A stretch of 26,703 nucleotides of DNA from a virus, in IMG/VR virus record IMGVR_UViG_3300003702_000028, positions 1 through 26,703 of that record, one strand, 5' to 3'. The notes beneath the pieces were generated by a model that saw only the letters and a list, made by a program, of their open reading frames with translations, was not told the origin of the DNA and ran no database searches. Both the position numbers and the translations under genes were made by a program. Shown piece by piece: positions 4,734 to 9,827 of this stretch; positions within the stretch are counted from its first letter, which is position 1, and each line of letters starts with the position of its first letter.

Positions 4734-4916
4734 ATGGAACGAATTGTTACACCCCGAGAATGGAACAAGTTAGAAACACAACATAGGCATCGTCGGTGGC
4801 AAGAGGAAGAAATTCAAAAGCATTGGAAACTTTTTCATCGTCTTTTTAAAATGGGTATCACCGTTGAGGAAATGGCCGTGTCAGGTCTAATAGAACACCA
4901 GAGGATAAATTTATGA
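4734..4916 (+). CDS. Hypothetical 60-aa protein
   Basis: ATG 4734 follows AAAGGAATATAGTA and is the first start after the promoter at 4673-4701. The 60 residues are mostly helical in character, rich in Trp, His, Arg and Glu (for example WNKLETQHRHRRWQEEEIQK), with a hydrophobic C-terminal half. No known family is recognised. Its stop overlaps the next ATG as ATGA, so it is the first gene of a co-translated series of small early-type phage genes. Confidence 0.65.
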   Translation: MERIVTPREWNKLETQHRHRRWQEEEIQKHWKLFHRLFKMGITVEEMAVSGLIEHQRINL

Positions 4917-6542: not shown

Positions 6543-7394
6543 ATGACACAGTTAATAAACCCACAGCAATTCACTGATGTAGTGACCTCATTGAGGTCAT
6601 TTTTTTTATCTAGGGATTTTGTAGAAGTACATACACAAAACCGATTAAGTATTTTAGCAGCCTGCGAAGATCCAACAACAGTAGCAACATATGATTATGC
6701 AGGAGAGGTATGGCCTCTGCCACAAACAGGACAAATGTGGTTAGAATATGAATTGCTTAAGAGCCCCCAATCATCGGGGTTTTTTTGTGTCTCTACATCC
6801 TATAGACAAGAACCGCATATAGTAGAAGGAAGACATGATTTAATCTTTCCTATGTTTGAATTTGAGTTCCCAGGAACGATTGTAGAATTAGAACAATTAG
6901 AAAAGGATTTAATGGGACACCTAGGCTTTGGTACTAAGCATGGTGTAGTCGCTAAAGATTATCTAGAATGGTGTGAAGTATTTAATACAGAAGAACTTAC
7001 ACATGAACACGAAACCGCAATGTCGGAGAAATGGCAAGGTAGAGTTTGTATGATTAAAAACTTTCCTAATTACACTTCACCCTTTTGGAATATGAAACAA
7101 AATGGCGATGGGACTGCTGCAAAAATAGATGTTATCATATCAGGGCAAGAAACTATAGGTTCTGCTGAGCGTTCATCGGATACTGATGAAATGTGGAATA
7201 TGTTCCATACAATCAGTGACGGACTCTACGCTAATCTATTATATGAACAGTTTGGTAAGAATCGTGTGGAAAAAGAATTAAAAGATTTTTTGGACTTAGA
7301 TTTTATACCTAGAGTAGGTGGCGGCATTGGTCTAACACGTTTAATACGAGCCAATGAAGACTATAAGCTAAGACAAATTGTAGCGAATATGTAG
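6543..7394 (+). CDS. Class II (Asp/Asn-type) aminoacyl-tRNA synthetase-like catalytic domain
   Basis: This 283-residue protein matches the catalytic core of class IIb synthetases (AspRS/AsnRS) and the related stand-alone asparagine synthetases. Motif 1-like RSFFLSRDFVEVHTQ spans about residues 18-32; motif 2 is TSYRQEP (85-91) followed by GRHDLIFPMFEFE; IDVIISGQETIGSAER (195-210) matches the amino-acid and ATP pocket region; motif 3 is GGGIGLTRL (259-267). The N-terminal anticodon-binding OB fold of true AspRS/AsnRS (about 100 residues) is absent, so it cannot read an anticodon in the usual way. Either aminoacylation or Asp-to-Asn conversion is possible. Its last codon and stop overlap the tRNA at 7390-7479. 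Two terminator-like hairpins lie inside the coding sequence. Confidence 0.8.
   Translation: MTQLINPQQFTDVVTSLRSFFLSRDFVEVHTQNRLSILAACEDPTTVATYDYAGEVWPLPQTGQMWLEYELLKSPQSSGFFCVSTSYRQEPHIVEGRHDLIFPMFEFEFPGTIVELEQLEKDLMGHLGFGTKHGVVAKDYLEWCEVFNTEELTHEHETAMSEKWQGRVCMIKNFPNYTSPFWNMKQNGDGTAAKIDVIISGQETIGSAERSSDTDEMWNMFHTISDGLYANLLYEQFGKNRVEKELKDFLDLDFIPRVGGGIGLTRLIRANEDYKLRQIVANM
6583..6607 (+). terminator. Terminator-like hairpin inside the synthetase-like gene (1)
   Basis: TGACCTC (6583-6589) pairs with GAGGTCA (6593-6599), followed directly by eight T residues (6600-6607). It lies at codons 14-22 of the gene. The full 17 bases also form a perfect palindrome about T6591, so a protein-binding site is an alternative reading. 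Confidence 0.6.
6759..6786 (+). terminator. Terminator-like hairpin inside the synthetase-like gene (2)
   Basis: CCCC (6764-6767) pairs with GGGG (6776-6779), with AAGAG before and seven T residues (6780-6786) after, the standard layout of an intrinsic terminator. It lies at about codons 73-82 of the gene. Confidence 0.55.
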
Positions 7395-7479
7395 GGTGGC
7401 GGAATTGGTAGACGCACTAGACAGTTAATCTAGGGTCCTGTGGCGGGACGTGGTGGTTCGAGACCACCCCCTACAGCCA
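7390..7479 (+). tRNA. Chimeric tRNA: Leu-like body, Asn-type anticodon GTT
   Basis: The acceptor TGTAGGG (7390-7396) pairs perfectly with CCCTACA (7469-7475); discriminator G7476 and encoded CCA 7477-7479 follow. The D arm TGGCGGAATTGGTAGACGC is the tRNA-Leu hallmark, and the long variable arm (7434-7451, GTCC/GGAC) is class II type. However, the anticodon stem CTAGA/TCTAG encloses CAGTTAA, so the anticodon by position is GTT (Asn). This equals the usual Asn loop CTGTTAA with U33 changed to A. G73 and U1-A72 also match tRNA-Asn, while Leu tRNAs normally have A73. The T arm is GGTGG-TTCGAGA-CCACC. The gene overlaps the synthetase-like stop codon by 5 bases. Automatic tools may call it Leu, Asn or undetermined. 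Confidence 0.85.
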
Positions 7480-7547: not shown

Positions 7548-8105
7548 ATGCCAAGTAATATGGGGAACGATGGATTTGCATGGTTTGTAGGTGTAGTTGA
7601 AGATCGGCATGATCCAGAAAAGCTCGGTCGAATTCGTGTACGAGCATTGGGAACACACACCCAAAATAAAGCTAGAATACCAACCGCTGATTTACCTTGG
7701 GCTCATGTTATGCAGCCTGTAACAGGTAATGCAATCGCAGGTATAGGAGACTCTCCCACTAATCTTATAGAAGGTACGTGGGTAGTTGGATTCTTTAGGG
7801 ATCCTGATTCAAGACAAGAGCTTGTTATCATAGGTACCTTGCCTGGTATGAATGTCACAGGTGCAGAAGCAGATAGACCGCAGGGTGCAAGAAATAGAGG
7901 TGCTGGTTCTACAGCACTGGATTACTCATGGGGATTTTTCGATCCCAGTACACCTGCCGATTTAGCTGAAGCTCCTTTTGAACCAGATCCCACTACTTAT
8001 GTTCCTGCTGCTGGAACACCAGGTAAAGTAATAGACATTGTATCACCTGCATCGGATAAGGTATTAAGATCCCAAAACAACTTTACCTACTGGGGCTTTT
8101 CTTAA
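7548..8105 (+). CDS. 5: Baseplate hub gp5, N-terminal part (frameshifted)
   Basis: The first 185 residues include the gp5 N-terminal OB-fold: FAWFVGVVEDRHDPEKLGRI, then WAHVMQPVT, GTWVVGFFRDPDSRQELVII and GTLPG (to about residue 103). In T4 this domain attaches the central spike to the hub. The frame stops at TAA 8103-8105, but the next frame is open from 8068 and carries the rest of gp5. A one-base extra A at AAAA 8074-8077, or a +1 ribosomal shift between 8068 and 8105, would join them into about 675 residues. Removing one A gives a smooth read from RSQ into TTLPTGAFLKTKD. Because gp5 is essential, a sequence error or programmed shift is more likely than a dead gene. Confidence 0.85.
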   Translation: MPSNMGNDGFAWFVGVVEDRHDPEKLGRIRVRALGTHTQNKARIPTADLPWAHVMQPVTGNAIAGIGDSPTNLIEGTWVVGFFRDPDSRQELVIIGTLPGMNVTGAEADRPQGARNRGAGSTALDYSWGFFDPSTPADLAEAPFEPDPTTYVPAAGTPGKVIDIVSPASDKVLRSQNNFTYWGFS

Positions 8106-9576
8106 AACAAAAGATGCAACCATTGGTACCCATTCTCAAGGTCTAACAGATACGTTCACAACTACTCGTAGATTAACTGTAGATGTTGCTTCGTTAGAGG
8201 TTGGTGTCAAAACTTTAGATCCTCCACTGACAGCACTTGTACGTGGTAGTATTTCGCCTGCAATTGTAAGTCCCGGTTATTTAGAAGATACGATTACACG
8301 GGATGCAGATGGGGCTGCTTATTGGCCTGTTACTAGAGATTTATTAGATGCAAGTAGAATACCACATCCTAGAATATCCGCCGTTTTAAAATCTAGTCTT
8401 ACAACAACACAAGAAACAGAGATTAAAGCGTTGTTTGAGGAAGGAGTTTATGGCACAGCAACTTGGGATGCAGTTAAAGCTTCACAGTATGTAGTATTAC
8501 CAAAGGCAGATGTAAACCGTCTAGCTCAAGGTGGCTATAAAATTAAAAGTATAATGAATGGTGCGACAGTAATAATTACATTAGATGCATATACAATTAA
8601 ACCTAAGTTAGCAGCGAAAGATACAATTCAGCTTTCAGGTATAATTGGTTTGGAAGGTTTGAATGGACCTTTGTTTCCATTAAAAAGTGCATCGTTAGGT
8701 ACTACTTCAGGTACTTTAATTATTGACAGGCCTGCCTCCGTTTCTGAAACCCAACTATATATAAGTGGTGGGGTTGTACTTGTTAATCCCCATCCTGTTT
8801 TGCGGGATAAAGCTGATGTAAGAGAACGACAAATTAATGTTGGAGCCCCTGGAGTGGGTACAGGTATATTTGCTGCGAAGTGGAATCAACCGACAAGTAG
8901 ATATGCTGCTCAATATCCTTACAATAAAGTTTTTGAATCTGAATCAGGACACATAAAAGAGTATGATGATACACCTGGTGCAGAACGTATACATGAATAT
9001 CATAGAGCAGGAACATATTATGAGATAGACCAAAATGGAATGAAGGTAGATTATGTAAAGGGTGACAATTATAACATCAGAATACATGACGATTACCTAT
9101 ATGTAAAAGGTGACATTGTTTGGACGGGTGATAATCAAGTTATGATTCGTGGAAATGATGATATGAGTTTATCATCTAAGTGGAGAATGAAAGTTTGGTC
9201 AGGTGGGGACGTTGAAATATATTCACAACGAGATATTAAAATGCGAGCAGAAGGTGATATACAAATGTTGGCGGGAGGTAATATTCATATAGAAGGAGAG
9301 GTTACTTCCAAGGCCCATGAGAATATAGGATTTGCTGCAGGTACTCGACCCGCAGATACTATTTCTCATGTAGTGATAAAGAGTGGTAAGATTACAGAAG
9401 ATGCCCCGAAGATAGATGACGGCGGCGGTATCTATATGAACCCAACAACACAGCCTGATAGTATAACTATCGCTGCGCCAGCAGATACTCCTGTTACAGG
9501 CACAACTGGACAAGGAGCAGGACTTGGTATAGACACCGTAGGAGATAATATTAGAAATTTAACAAAGAATGATTAG
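8077..9576 (+). CDS. 5: Baseplate hub gp5, C-terminal part (continuation after +1 shift)
   Basis: This frame is open from 8068 and has no convincing own start; TTG 8431 is the first plausible initiator. The part up to about 8790 is a region unlike T4 gp5, and no T4-lysozyme-like motif is visible, as in many marine relatives. From about 8890 the gp5 hallmarks appear: YPYNKVFESESGHIKEYDDT and PGAERIHEYHRAGTYYEIDQ. Then come short repeats such as GDVEIYSQRDIKMRAEGDIQ, typical of the needle-like beta-helix that forms the spike trimer. The tail is Gly/Thr rich. The downstream gene follows after 11 bases, and the PAAR tip protein is encoded three genes on. Confidence 0.85.
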   Translation, partial: TTLPTGAFLKTKDATIGTHSQGLTDTFTTTRRLTVDVASLEVGVKTLDPPLTALVRGSISPAIVSPGYLEDTITRDADGAAYWPVTRDLLDASRIPHPRISAVLKSSLTTTQETEIKALFEEGVYGTATWDAVKASQYVVLPKADVNRLAQGGYKIKSIMNGATVIITLDAYTIKPKLAAKDTIQLSGIIGLEGLNGPLFPLKSASLGTTSGTLIIDRPASVSETQLYISGGVVLVNPHPVLRDKADVRERQINVGAPGVGTGIFAAKWNQPTSRYAAQYPYNKVFESESGHIKEYDDTPGAERIHEYHRAGTYYEIDQNGMKVDYVKGDNYNIRIHDDYLYVKGDIVWTGDNQVMIRGNDDMSLSSKWRMKVWSGGDVEIYSQRDIKMRAEGDIQMLAGGNIHIEGEVTSKAHENIGFAAGTRPADTISHVVIKSGKITEDAPKIDDGGGIYMNPTTQPDSITIAAPADTPVTGTTGQGAGLGIDTVGDNIRNLTKND

Positions 9577-9587
9577 GAGAAAATGAA

Positions 9588-9827
9588 ATGTTAAGTATGT
9601 TTATTGAAAAAATTAAAGATAGAGATTTGAGTTTGGGAGTGATTATGATTATAGTAGGAGTCCTTATTTGGATTCTTCCAATTAAGCTCGCAGCAATTGG
9701 TTTTGTAGTATATGGTGTAATACAAACATTCTGGAAGAAAGAAGAAGCAGTAGAACAACATCATCACCATCACCATAATAATAATAGAAAGAAGAAAAAA
9801 GTTGTAAGGAGTAATAAAAATGGCTAA
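9588..9827 (+). CDS. Small membrane protein with natural His6 and basic tail
   Basis: ATG 9588 lies 7 bases after AGGAGA; a rival ATG at 9583 gives only three codons. The 79 residues have two close hydrophobic segments (about 16-31 and 33-47), then a charged tail with six consecutive His (codons 9759-9776), three Asn and RKKKK. The first part could span the membrane as a hairpin, leaving the His and Lys tail inside the cell. Tail His tracts can bind metal, but a role here is unknown. Its position between the spike shaft and the spike tip genes is where T4-like phages often keep small accessory ORFs. It overlaps the next gene by 8 bases. Confidence 0.6.
   Translation: MLSMFIEKIKDRDLSLGVIMIIVGVLIWILPIKLAAIGFVVYGVIQTFWKKEEAVEQHHHHHHNNNRKKKKVVRSNKNG

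Follow-up and report, generated by a model that had tools for sequence, protein, structure and literature searches.

What is a tRNA for, when it carries the charging signals of asparagine on a leucine-type body, lacks U33 in its anticodon loop and is encoded directly behind a gene that resembles asparaginyl-tRNA synthetase (AsnRS)? This question is raised by a 26.7-kb viral fragment, IMG/VR record IMGVR_UViG_3300003702_000028, which was analysed over its whole length and is called the window below. An earlier note, made from the sequence of the window, had described the tRNA as a chimera poorly suited to decoding and had left its purpose to speculation.

The tRNA gene and the AsnRS-like gene before it

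The tRNA gene lies at 7390-7479 on the plus strand, as the earlier note described it: the ARAGORN call, tRNA-Asn(gtt) at exactly 7390-7479, our parse and RNA folding, which returns the same cloverleaf, all agree. In the search with the Rfam tRNA model, it was unlisted even at E ≤ 1. The molecule is class-II-shaped, with the acceptor stem TGTAGGG/CCCTACA (hence U1-A72), a Leu-like D arm (GCGGAATTGGTAGACGC), the anticodon stem CTAGA/TCTAG, a long variable arm of 18 nt (7434-7451, plus strand; stem GTCC/GGAC, supported by parse, covariation and fold) and the T arm GGTGG-TTCGAGA-CCACC, followed by G73 and an encoded CCA. The anticodon loop CAGTTAA (7422-7428, plus strand) reads C32 A33 G34 U35 U36 A37 A38, with A33 at 7423, GTT at 7424-7426 and A37 at 7427; on inspection of the sequence, the stems forbid a shifted frame with a Leu UAA anticodon. 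Among 27 homologues, 20 of the 24 stem pairs have changed on both sides, and 99.7% of the paired cells are paired, versus 79% in shuffles, so the structure is that of a tRNA far beyond chance, and a degenerate pseudo-tRNA is ruled out by the covariation. An assembly or sequencing error at A33, against which the earlier note had warned, is likewise ruled out because 18 distinct tRNAs, from independent contigs, combine A33 with GTT.

The 5' end of the tRNA overlaps the open reading frame at 6543-7394 (plus strand), whose stop codon (7392-7394) lies inside the 5' acceptor strand. Its 283-aa product matches PF00152 (tRNA synthetases class II D/K/N) and PHROG 29758, which is annotated as of unknown function. 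Structure prediction (mean pLDDT 90.8) shows an entire class II catalytic core and nothing more: the N-terminal OB-fold anticodon-binding domain is missing. The best structural matches are AsnRS (VIA Z 27.3, human AsnRS with Asn-AMP), and archaeal asparagine synthetase A ranks below them (VIA Z 24). Class II motifs 1-3 are present, with QTGQMWLE, YRQE, ETIGSAER and GGGIGLTR seen; presumably, the pocket lysine of the AspRS type is replaced in QTGQMWLE, as in AsnRS, and ETIGSAER retains the arginine that binds the side chain. The enzyme scores far below the cut-offs of the curated models, both for asnS (27.1 bits versus 342.6) and for archaeal asparagine synthetase A (NF005055; 18.9 bits versus 389). 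Judged by its motifs and predicted fold, the enzyme family is derived from AsnRS.

Several other features of the window should be mentioned. The open reading frames at 7548-8105 and 8431-9576 match the N-terminal and middle parts of one baseplate hub (gp5) family, PHROG 430, so that a split gene or a frameshift near 8105-8431 is possible. The open reading frame at 9588-9827 encodes a small, membrane-like protein that has six consecutive histidines close to the C-terminus, and an ordinary tRNA-Gly(TCC) is found at 159-232, near the contig start.

A linked tRNA family that keeps charging signals

The pair is not peculiar to the window. At 220 of the 242 distinct viral loci whose downstream sequence was long enough, a tRNA of this family (the "partner tRNA") stands behind the AsnRS-like gene: an exact search found it in 188, mostly 4-14 nt past the stop codon, and a covariance model found it in 32 of the remaining 54. 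The enzyme gene occurs in at least hundreds of marine viral contigs, and in the cultured phages P-SSM2, P-SSM5 and P-SSM7 it is annotated as "tRNA ligase", with a tRNA-Asn behind each copy. To judge from this gene order, the enzyme gene and the following tRNA are one cassette of marine phages, including cultured Prochlorococcus phages. A single tRNA is listed for the 252 kb of P-SSM2 in PMC3037559, and the covariance model identifies it as a partner tRNA. In the P-SSM2 record (AY939844.2), the annotated tRNA-Asn is placed at 6825-6910 and the tRNA sequence appears to lie at 4814-4899, about 2 kb away, probably as a result of stale coordinates.

It might be argued that the two genes are independent cargo, that is, that the enzyme is purely metabolic and works without a tRNA, while the tRNA is a neighbour kept for a reason of its own. 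In bacteria the enzyme does occur without the tRNA, as it does at about 9% of the phage loci, and one 202-kb contig (G019) carries the enzyme gene and no tRNA at all; the partner tRNA is thus not obligatory for the enzyme family. In the enzyme tree, the phage enzymes nest among the bacterial ones and the tRNA-free phages are scattered among the tRNA-bearing ones, and sequence comparison found no residue that cleanly separates tRNA-bearing from tRNA-free enzymes. We nevertheless give independent cargo little credence, because the linkage at 220 of the 242 loci persists in otherwise different gene neighbourhoods and because some of the linked phages, such as G014 (235 kb) and G016 (127 kb), have the partner tRNA as their sole tRNA.

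Few features of elongator tRNAs are as constant as U33 and a purine at position 37, and tRNAs that read ANN codons normally carry t6A37, a modification that U37 forbids. The partner tRNAs were compared with this background in a set of 149 distinct members, located by position and with ARAGORN. With a loop register picked with a preference for GT, G34 and U35 are present in 149/149, and position 36 is U in 146 and C in three, so that every member has GUU or GUC; G73 and U1 are also present in all 149, and the U1-A72 pair in 148. Position 33 is U in 113, A in 18, C in 16 and G in two (U33 missing in 36), and position 37 is U in 127, G in 12, A in six and C in four (purine missing in 131). One or both of the two decoding features are lost in 134 members and both are kept in 15, which bears out the poor suitability for decoding suspected from the window alone. 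The ordinary tRNAs of the same loci numbered 142 once 16 family members that had been called with them were set aside; U33 is present in 140/142 and a purine at 37 in 142/142, and the loops of the ordinary tRNA-Asn genes are all CTGTTAA. The window tRNA, with its A37, departs from the U37 majority; A33 is the mark of a subgroup only, and U37 (127/149) is the more general anomaly of the family.

The body of the molecule is less uniform. The variable region is 8 nt or shorter in only 10 of the 149 members, and CCA is encoded in most. The ten short ones come from L052, L064 and eight similar loci (e.g., L471, L475 and L477), and eight of them have the loop TTGTTGG (U33, G37). A second body type behind the enzyme gene has TA at positions 8-9, the D stem TGC/GCA and a variable arm of 27-28 nt (L009, 3359-3455; L027, 3368-3463; L006, 2742-2837; L013, L033 and L035), and some of these have GTC. 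A covariance model built on the partner tRNAs picks up host tRNA-Leu genes first. As a tRNA-Leu, the family lacks A73 and a Leu anticodon and has, in the window, the long variable arm and the Leu-type D arm; as an elongator tRNA-Asn, the window tRNA has GUU and G73 and lacks U33 and a short variable region.

A body of the Leu type that bears Asn identity signals, beside a synthetase-like gene, is a conserved combination, as the 149 homologues and the 220 of 242 loci attest. Of the four features whose joint conservation the earlier note proposed to check, GTT (146/149), G73 and mostly the long arm are kept across the family, and A33 (18/149) is not. Homologues with U33 do exist, and they carry GUU or GUC, never the Leu anticodon that would have made the window tRNA a variant of an ordinary tRNA-Leu. 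Only one ordinary tRNA-Leu was found behind an enzyme gene: a plain tRNA-Leu(TAA) at 3358-3441 of L037, with a promoter-like sequence to itself, in a phage that has no partner tRNA.

In bacteria, Asn identity resides in the anticodon and G73, and the amidation of Asp-tRNA-Asn needs U1-A72 (PMC9976931). The identity signals that the earlier note took to be in conflict are thus coherent: the A73 required by LeuRS is absent from all 149 members, and GUU, G73 and U1-A72 belong together. Across the partner tRNAs compared, what varies is the decoding set; the elements for charging and amidation stay constant. Because GUU/GUC, G73 and U1-A72 are kept and U33 and the purine at 37, and with that purine t6A37, are not, the comparison shows selection for the elements of charging with Asn and not for those of decoding, and this is the best-supported step of our argument. 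That the partner tRNA is charged with Asn seems well supported on these grounds, and the three GUC members, which keep U1-A72, would fit aspartylation followed by amidation. The enzyme lacks an anticodon-binding domain, so it must be some other partner for which the anticodon is preserved. With all features for loading Asn kept and those for reading codons lost, the tRNA probably serves chemistry away from the ribosome.

Two explanations would account for the loop differently. In the first, the phage tRNA-Asn and a minimal AsnRS form a translation pair that reads AAC/AAU, perhaps while host tRNA-Asn is being damaged, and the loop changes give resistance to anticodon nucleases. This is at odds with the 134 members that lack U33 and/or a purine at 37, with the bar that U37 sets on t6A37, with G013, which already has an ordinary tRNA-Asn (CTGTTAA) besides its partner tRNA (CCGTTTA), and with the enzymes that occur without a tRNA and beside pyr genes. 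The invariant or nearly invariant GUU, the 15 members that keep both decoding features and the description of phage tRNAs whose loop changes evade host nucleases (PMC10264068) lend it some weight, and we consider it unlikely. In the second, the tRNA is a decoy, a mimic of tRNA-Asn/Asp that ties up a host anticodon nuclease or another loop enzyme without being cleaved. The conserved GU[U/C], the freely varying position 33 and the altered position 37 are what a decoy might look like, but it leaves the invariant G73, U1-A72 and the mostly encoded CCA unexplained, and neither decoy nor nuclease evasion explains the linked AsnRS-like enzyme. PADLOC gave no match for the enzyme or for two neighbouring proteins, and we find a decoy very doubtful.

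Bacterial relatives and a probable link to pyrimidines

Relatives of the enzyme with 50-62% identity are found in Patescibacteria, Bacteroidota, Dependentiae, Rickettsiales, Pasteurella atlantica and others. No partner tRNA was found near the bacterial enzyme genes, and a dedicated one hidden elsewhere was absent from 12 genomes, where the best matches were ordinary tRNA-Leu genes. Among 73 bacterial loci, where the names of pyr clusters rest on identified members only, pyrE/pyrF-type genes lie alongside in 21 and pyrD in 14; loci with the enzyme beside pyrD/pyrE/pyrF, in genomes that lack PyrB, include L133, L141, L110, L152, L140, L108, L155 and others. In the 12 enzyme-bearing genomes, PyrB and PyrC were each over the cut-off in none, CarB in one and PyrD in 10; dihydroorotase-like proteins below the threshold occur in four, one of them at 260.8 bits versus 279.05. 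Within one order, 150 genomes were compared: PyrB is present in 124 and the enzyme in seven, and the two never occur together (Fisher p = 2.2e-6, a value without phylogenetic correction, and the draft genomes weaken claims of absence). Asparagine synthetase is over the cut-off in 10 of the 12 genomes and is a source of free Asn. True AsnRS is over the cut-off in six of the 12, which makes it unlikely that in bacteria the enzyme is a replacement for hosts without AsnRS.

At two loci (L108, 634-2934; L155, 494-2910), the enzyme gene is preceded by genes for an NF005365 (PRK06886) amidohydrolase and an ArgH-like lyase, which may also belong to a pathway without PyrB in some genomes. The amidohydrolase was rejected as an obligatory third partner, since it was found in only five of the 12 genomes; the lyase adjoins only four bacterial loci.

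Because the enzyme lies beside pyrD/pyrE/pyrF in genomes without carB, pyrB or a recognised pyrC, the bacterial enzyme most likely supplies dihydroorotate or a direct precursor of it. The stoichiometry would allow this: Asn + CO2 = dihydroorotate + H2O, so that adenylation of Asn, as in AsnRS, together with bicarbonate could suffice in one enzyme. In its most specific form, the proposal is that the enzyme makes dihydroorotate from Asn and bicarbonate, that in many bacteria it takes the place of carbamoyl-phosphate synthetase, PyrB and PyrC, and that in marine phages a dedicated non-decoding Asn-tRNA is the Asn donor. Stated so fully, it is unlikely.

The enzyme gene itself contains two terminator-like hairpins on the plus strand, one at 6581-6609 (AGTGACCTCATTGAGGTCATTTTTTTT; approximately codons 13-22) and one at 6759-6790 (GAGCCCCCAATCATCGGGGTTTTTTT; approximately codons 73-82); no comparable hairpin was found in the other large open reading frames of the window. 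Scored as a stem of 6 bp or more with a T run after it, a hairpin is present at site 1 in 77% of 253 distinct phage regions, versus 1.5% in synonymous shuffles, and at site 2 in 58%, versus 5.8%; in 71 bacterial genes, the values are 23% (shuffles, 1.4%) and 18% (shuffles, 2.4%). The stems covary in homologues; in this, and in having a T run after a G+C hairpin, the two sites resemble a pyr-type attenuator. In Escherichia coli, pyrBI and pyrE are controlled by translation-coupled terminators, and by this precedent both hairpins may be translation-coupled attenuators as in pyr genes, which would fit a role in pyrimidine synthesis.

The hairpins also hint at cis regulation of the gene, and the tRNA-like RNA could itself be a regulator, either an allosteric partner of the AsnRS core or a sensor of Asn. 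The tight operonic linkage and the tRNA-free bacterial enzyme would suit such a role, which we judge quite unlikely; the full charging set, including G73 and the mostly encoded CCA, argues for real aminoacylation.

The explanation we prefer, and put forward tentatively, is that a non-decoding, Asn-carrying tRNA works with a pyrimidine-linked enzyme derived from AsnRS. Asn would be put on the tRNA by host enzymes (bacterial AsnRS, or a non-discriminating AspRS with the amidotransferase GatCAB) and/or by the phage AsnRS core; the charged tRNA would be poorly used by ribosomes, and would hand its Asn to the phage enzyme, or act with it, away from the ribosome. The cassette would thereby feed pyrimidine nucleotide synthesis in the phages. 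That the adjacent enzyme uses the charged tRNA is suggested by the linkage and weakened by the tRNA-free relatives of the enzyme. Also counting against this explanation are the asparagine synthetase that 10 of the 12 bacterial genomes have for free Asn, the missing anticodon-binding domain and the lack of a residue that cleanly sets tRNA-bearing enzymes apart.

Known systems and the meaning of the pair

A conserved and abundant phage tRNA without decoding features that keeps all signals for charging with Asn points to selection for a non-decoding purpose, and the cultured phages P-SSM2, P-SSM5 and P-SSM7 make this idea testable now. The bacteria with pyrD/E/F and without carB, pyrB or a recognised pyrC show an apparent gap in textbook pyrimidine synthesis, and they carry a relative of AsnRS. 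If this enzyme makes dihydroorotate, it would be a new route to pyrimidines, and if the tRNA is the Asn donor, there would be a tRNA-dependent step in nucleotide synthesis. In the open-access literature searched, nothing on point came up for a phage Asn pair or for a PyrB-less route, an absence that is no proof of novelty.

With ordinary bacterial tRNA-Asn (GUU), the family has GUU, G73, U1-A72 and CCA in common, whereas it has a long variable arm and a Leu-like D arm and has lost U33 and/or A37. EpmA/GenX, GluQRS and HisZ are likewise truncated synthetase cores with non-standard jobs, and GenX is among the structural matches, but they differ in amino-acid subclass and genomic context; none is known to be encoded with its own tRNA. 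The non-proteinogenic tRNA-Gly isoacceptors of Staphylococcus aureus are charged tRNAs kept out of translation for another pathway, and they differ from the partner tRNA in amino acid, body and pathway and in being chromosomal. Archaeal asparagine synthetase A (AS-AR, 3p8t/3reu) is, like our enzyme, an AsnRS/AspRS core without an anticodon-binding domain; our enzyme, however, lies far below the NF005055 cut-off, and in bacteria its gene is linked to pyr genes, in phages to a tRNA. The phage tRNAs with mutated loops described by van den Berg in 2023 (PMC10264068) also have altered anticodon loops, whereas here a Leu-type body is combined with Asn identity, position 37 (and partly 33) is changed across the family, and an AsnRS-like gene is usually linked. 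Another precedent is the "tRNA ligase" T4-GC 194 of P-SSM2, P-SSM5 and P-SSM7 (PMC3037559), which is our enzyme gene, followed by a tRNA of this kind; in the relevant part of that paper it is listed only as a sporadic host-like gene, and its pairing with a tRNA and the anomalies of that tRNA are not discussed there.
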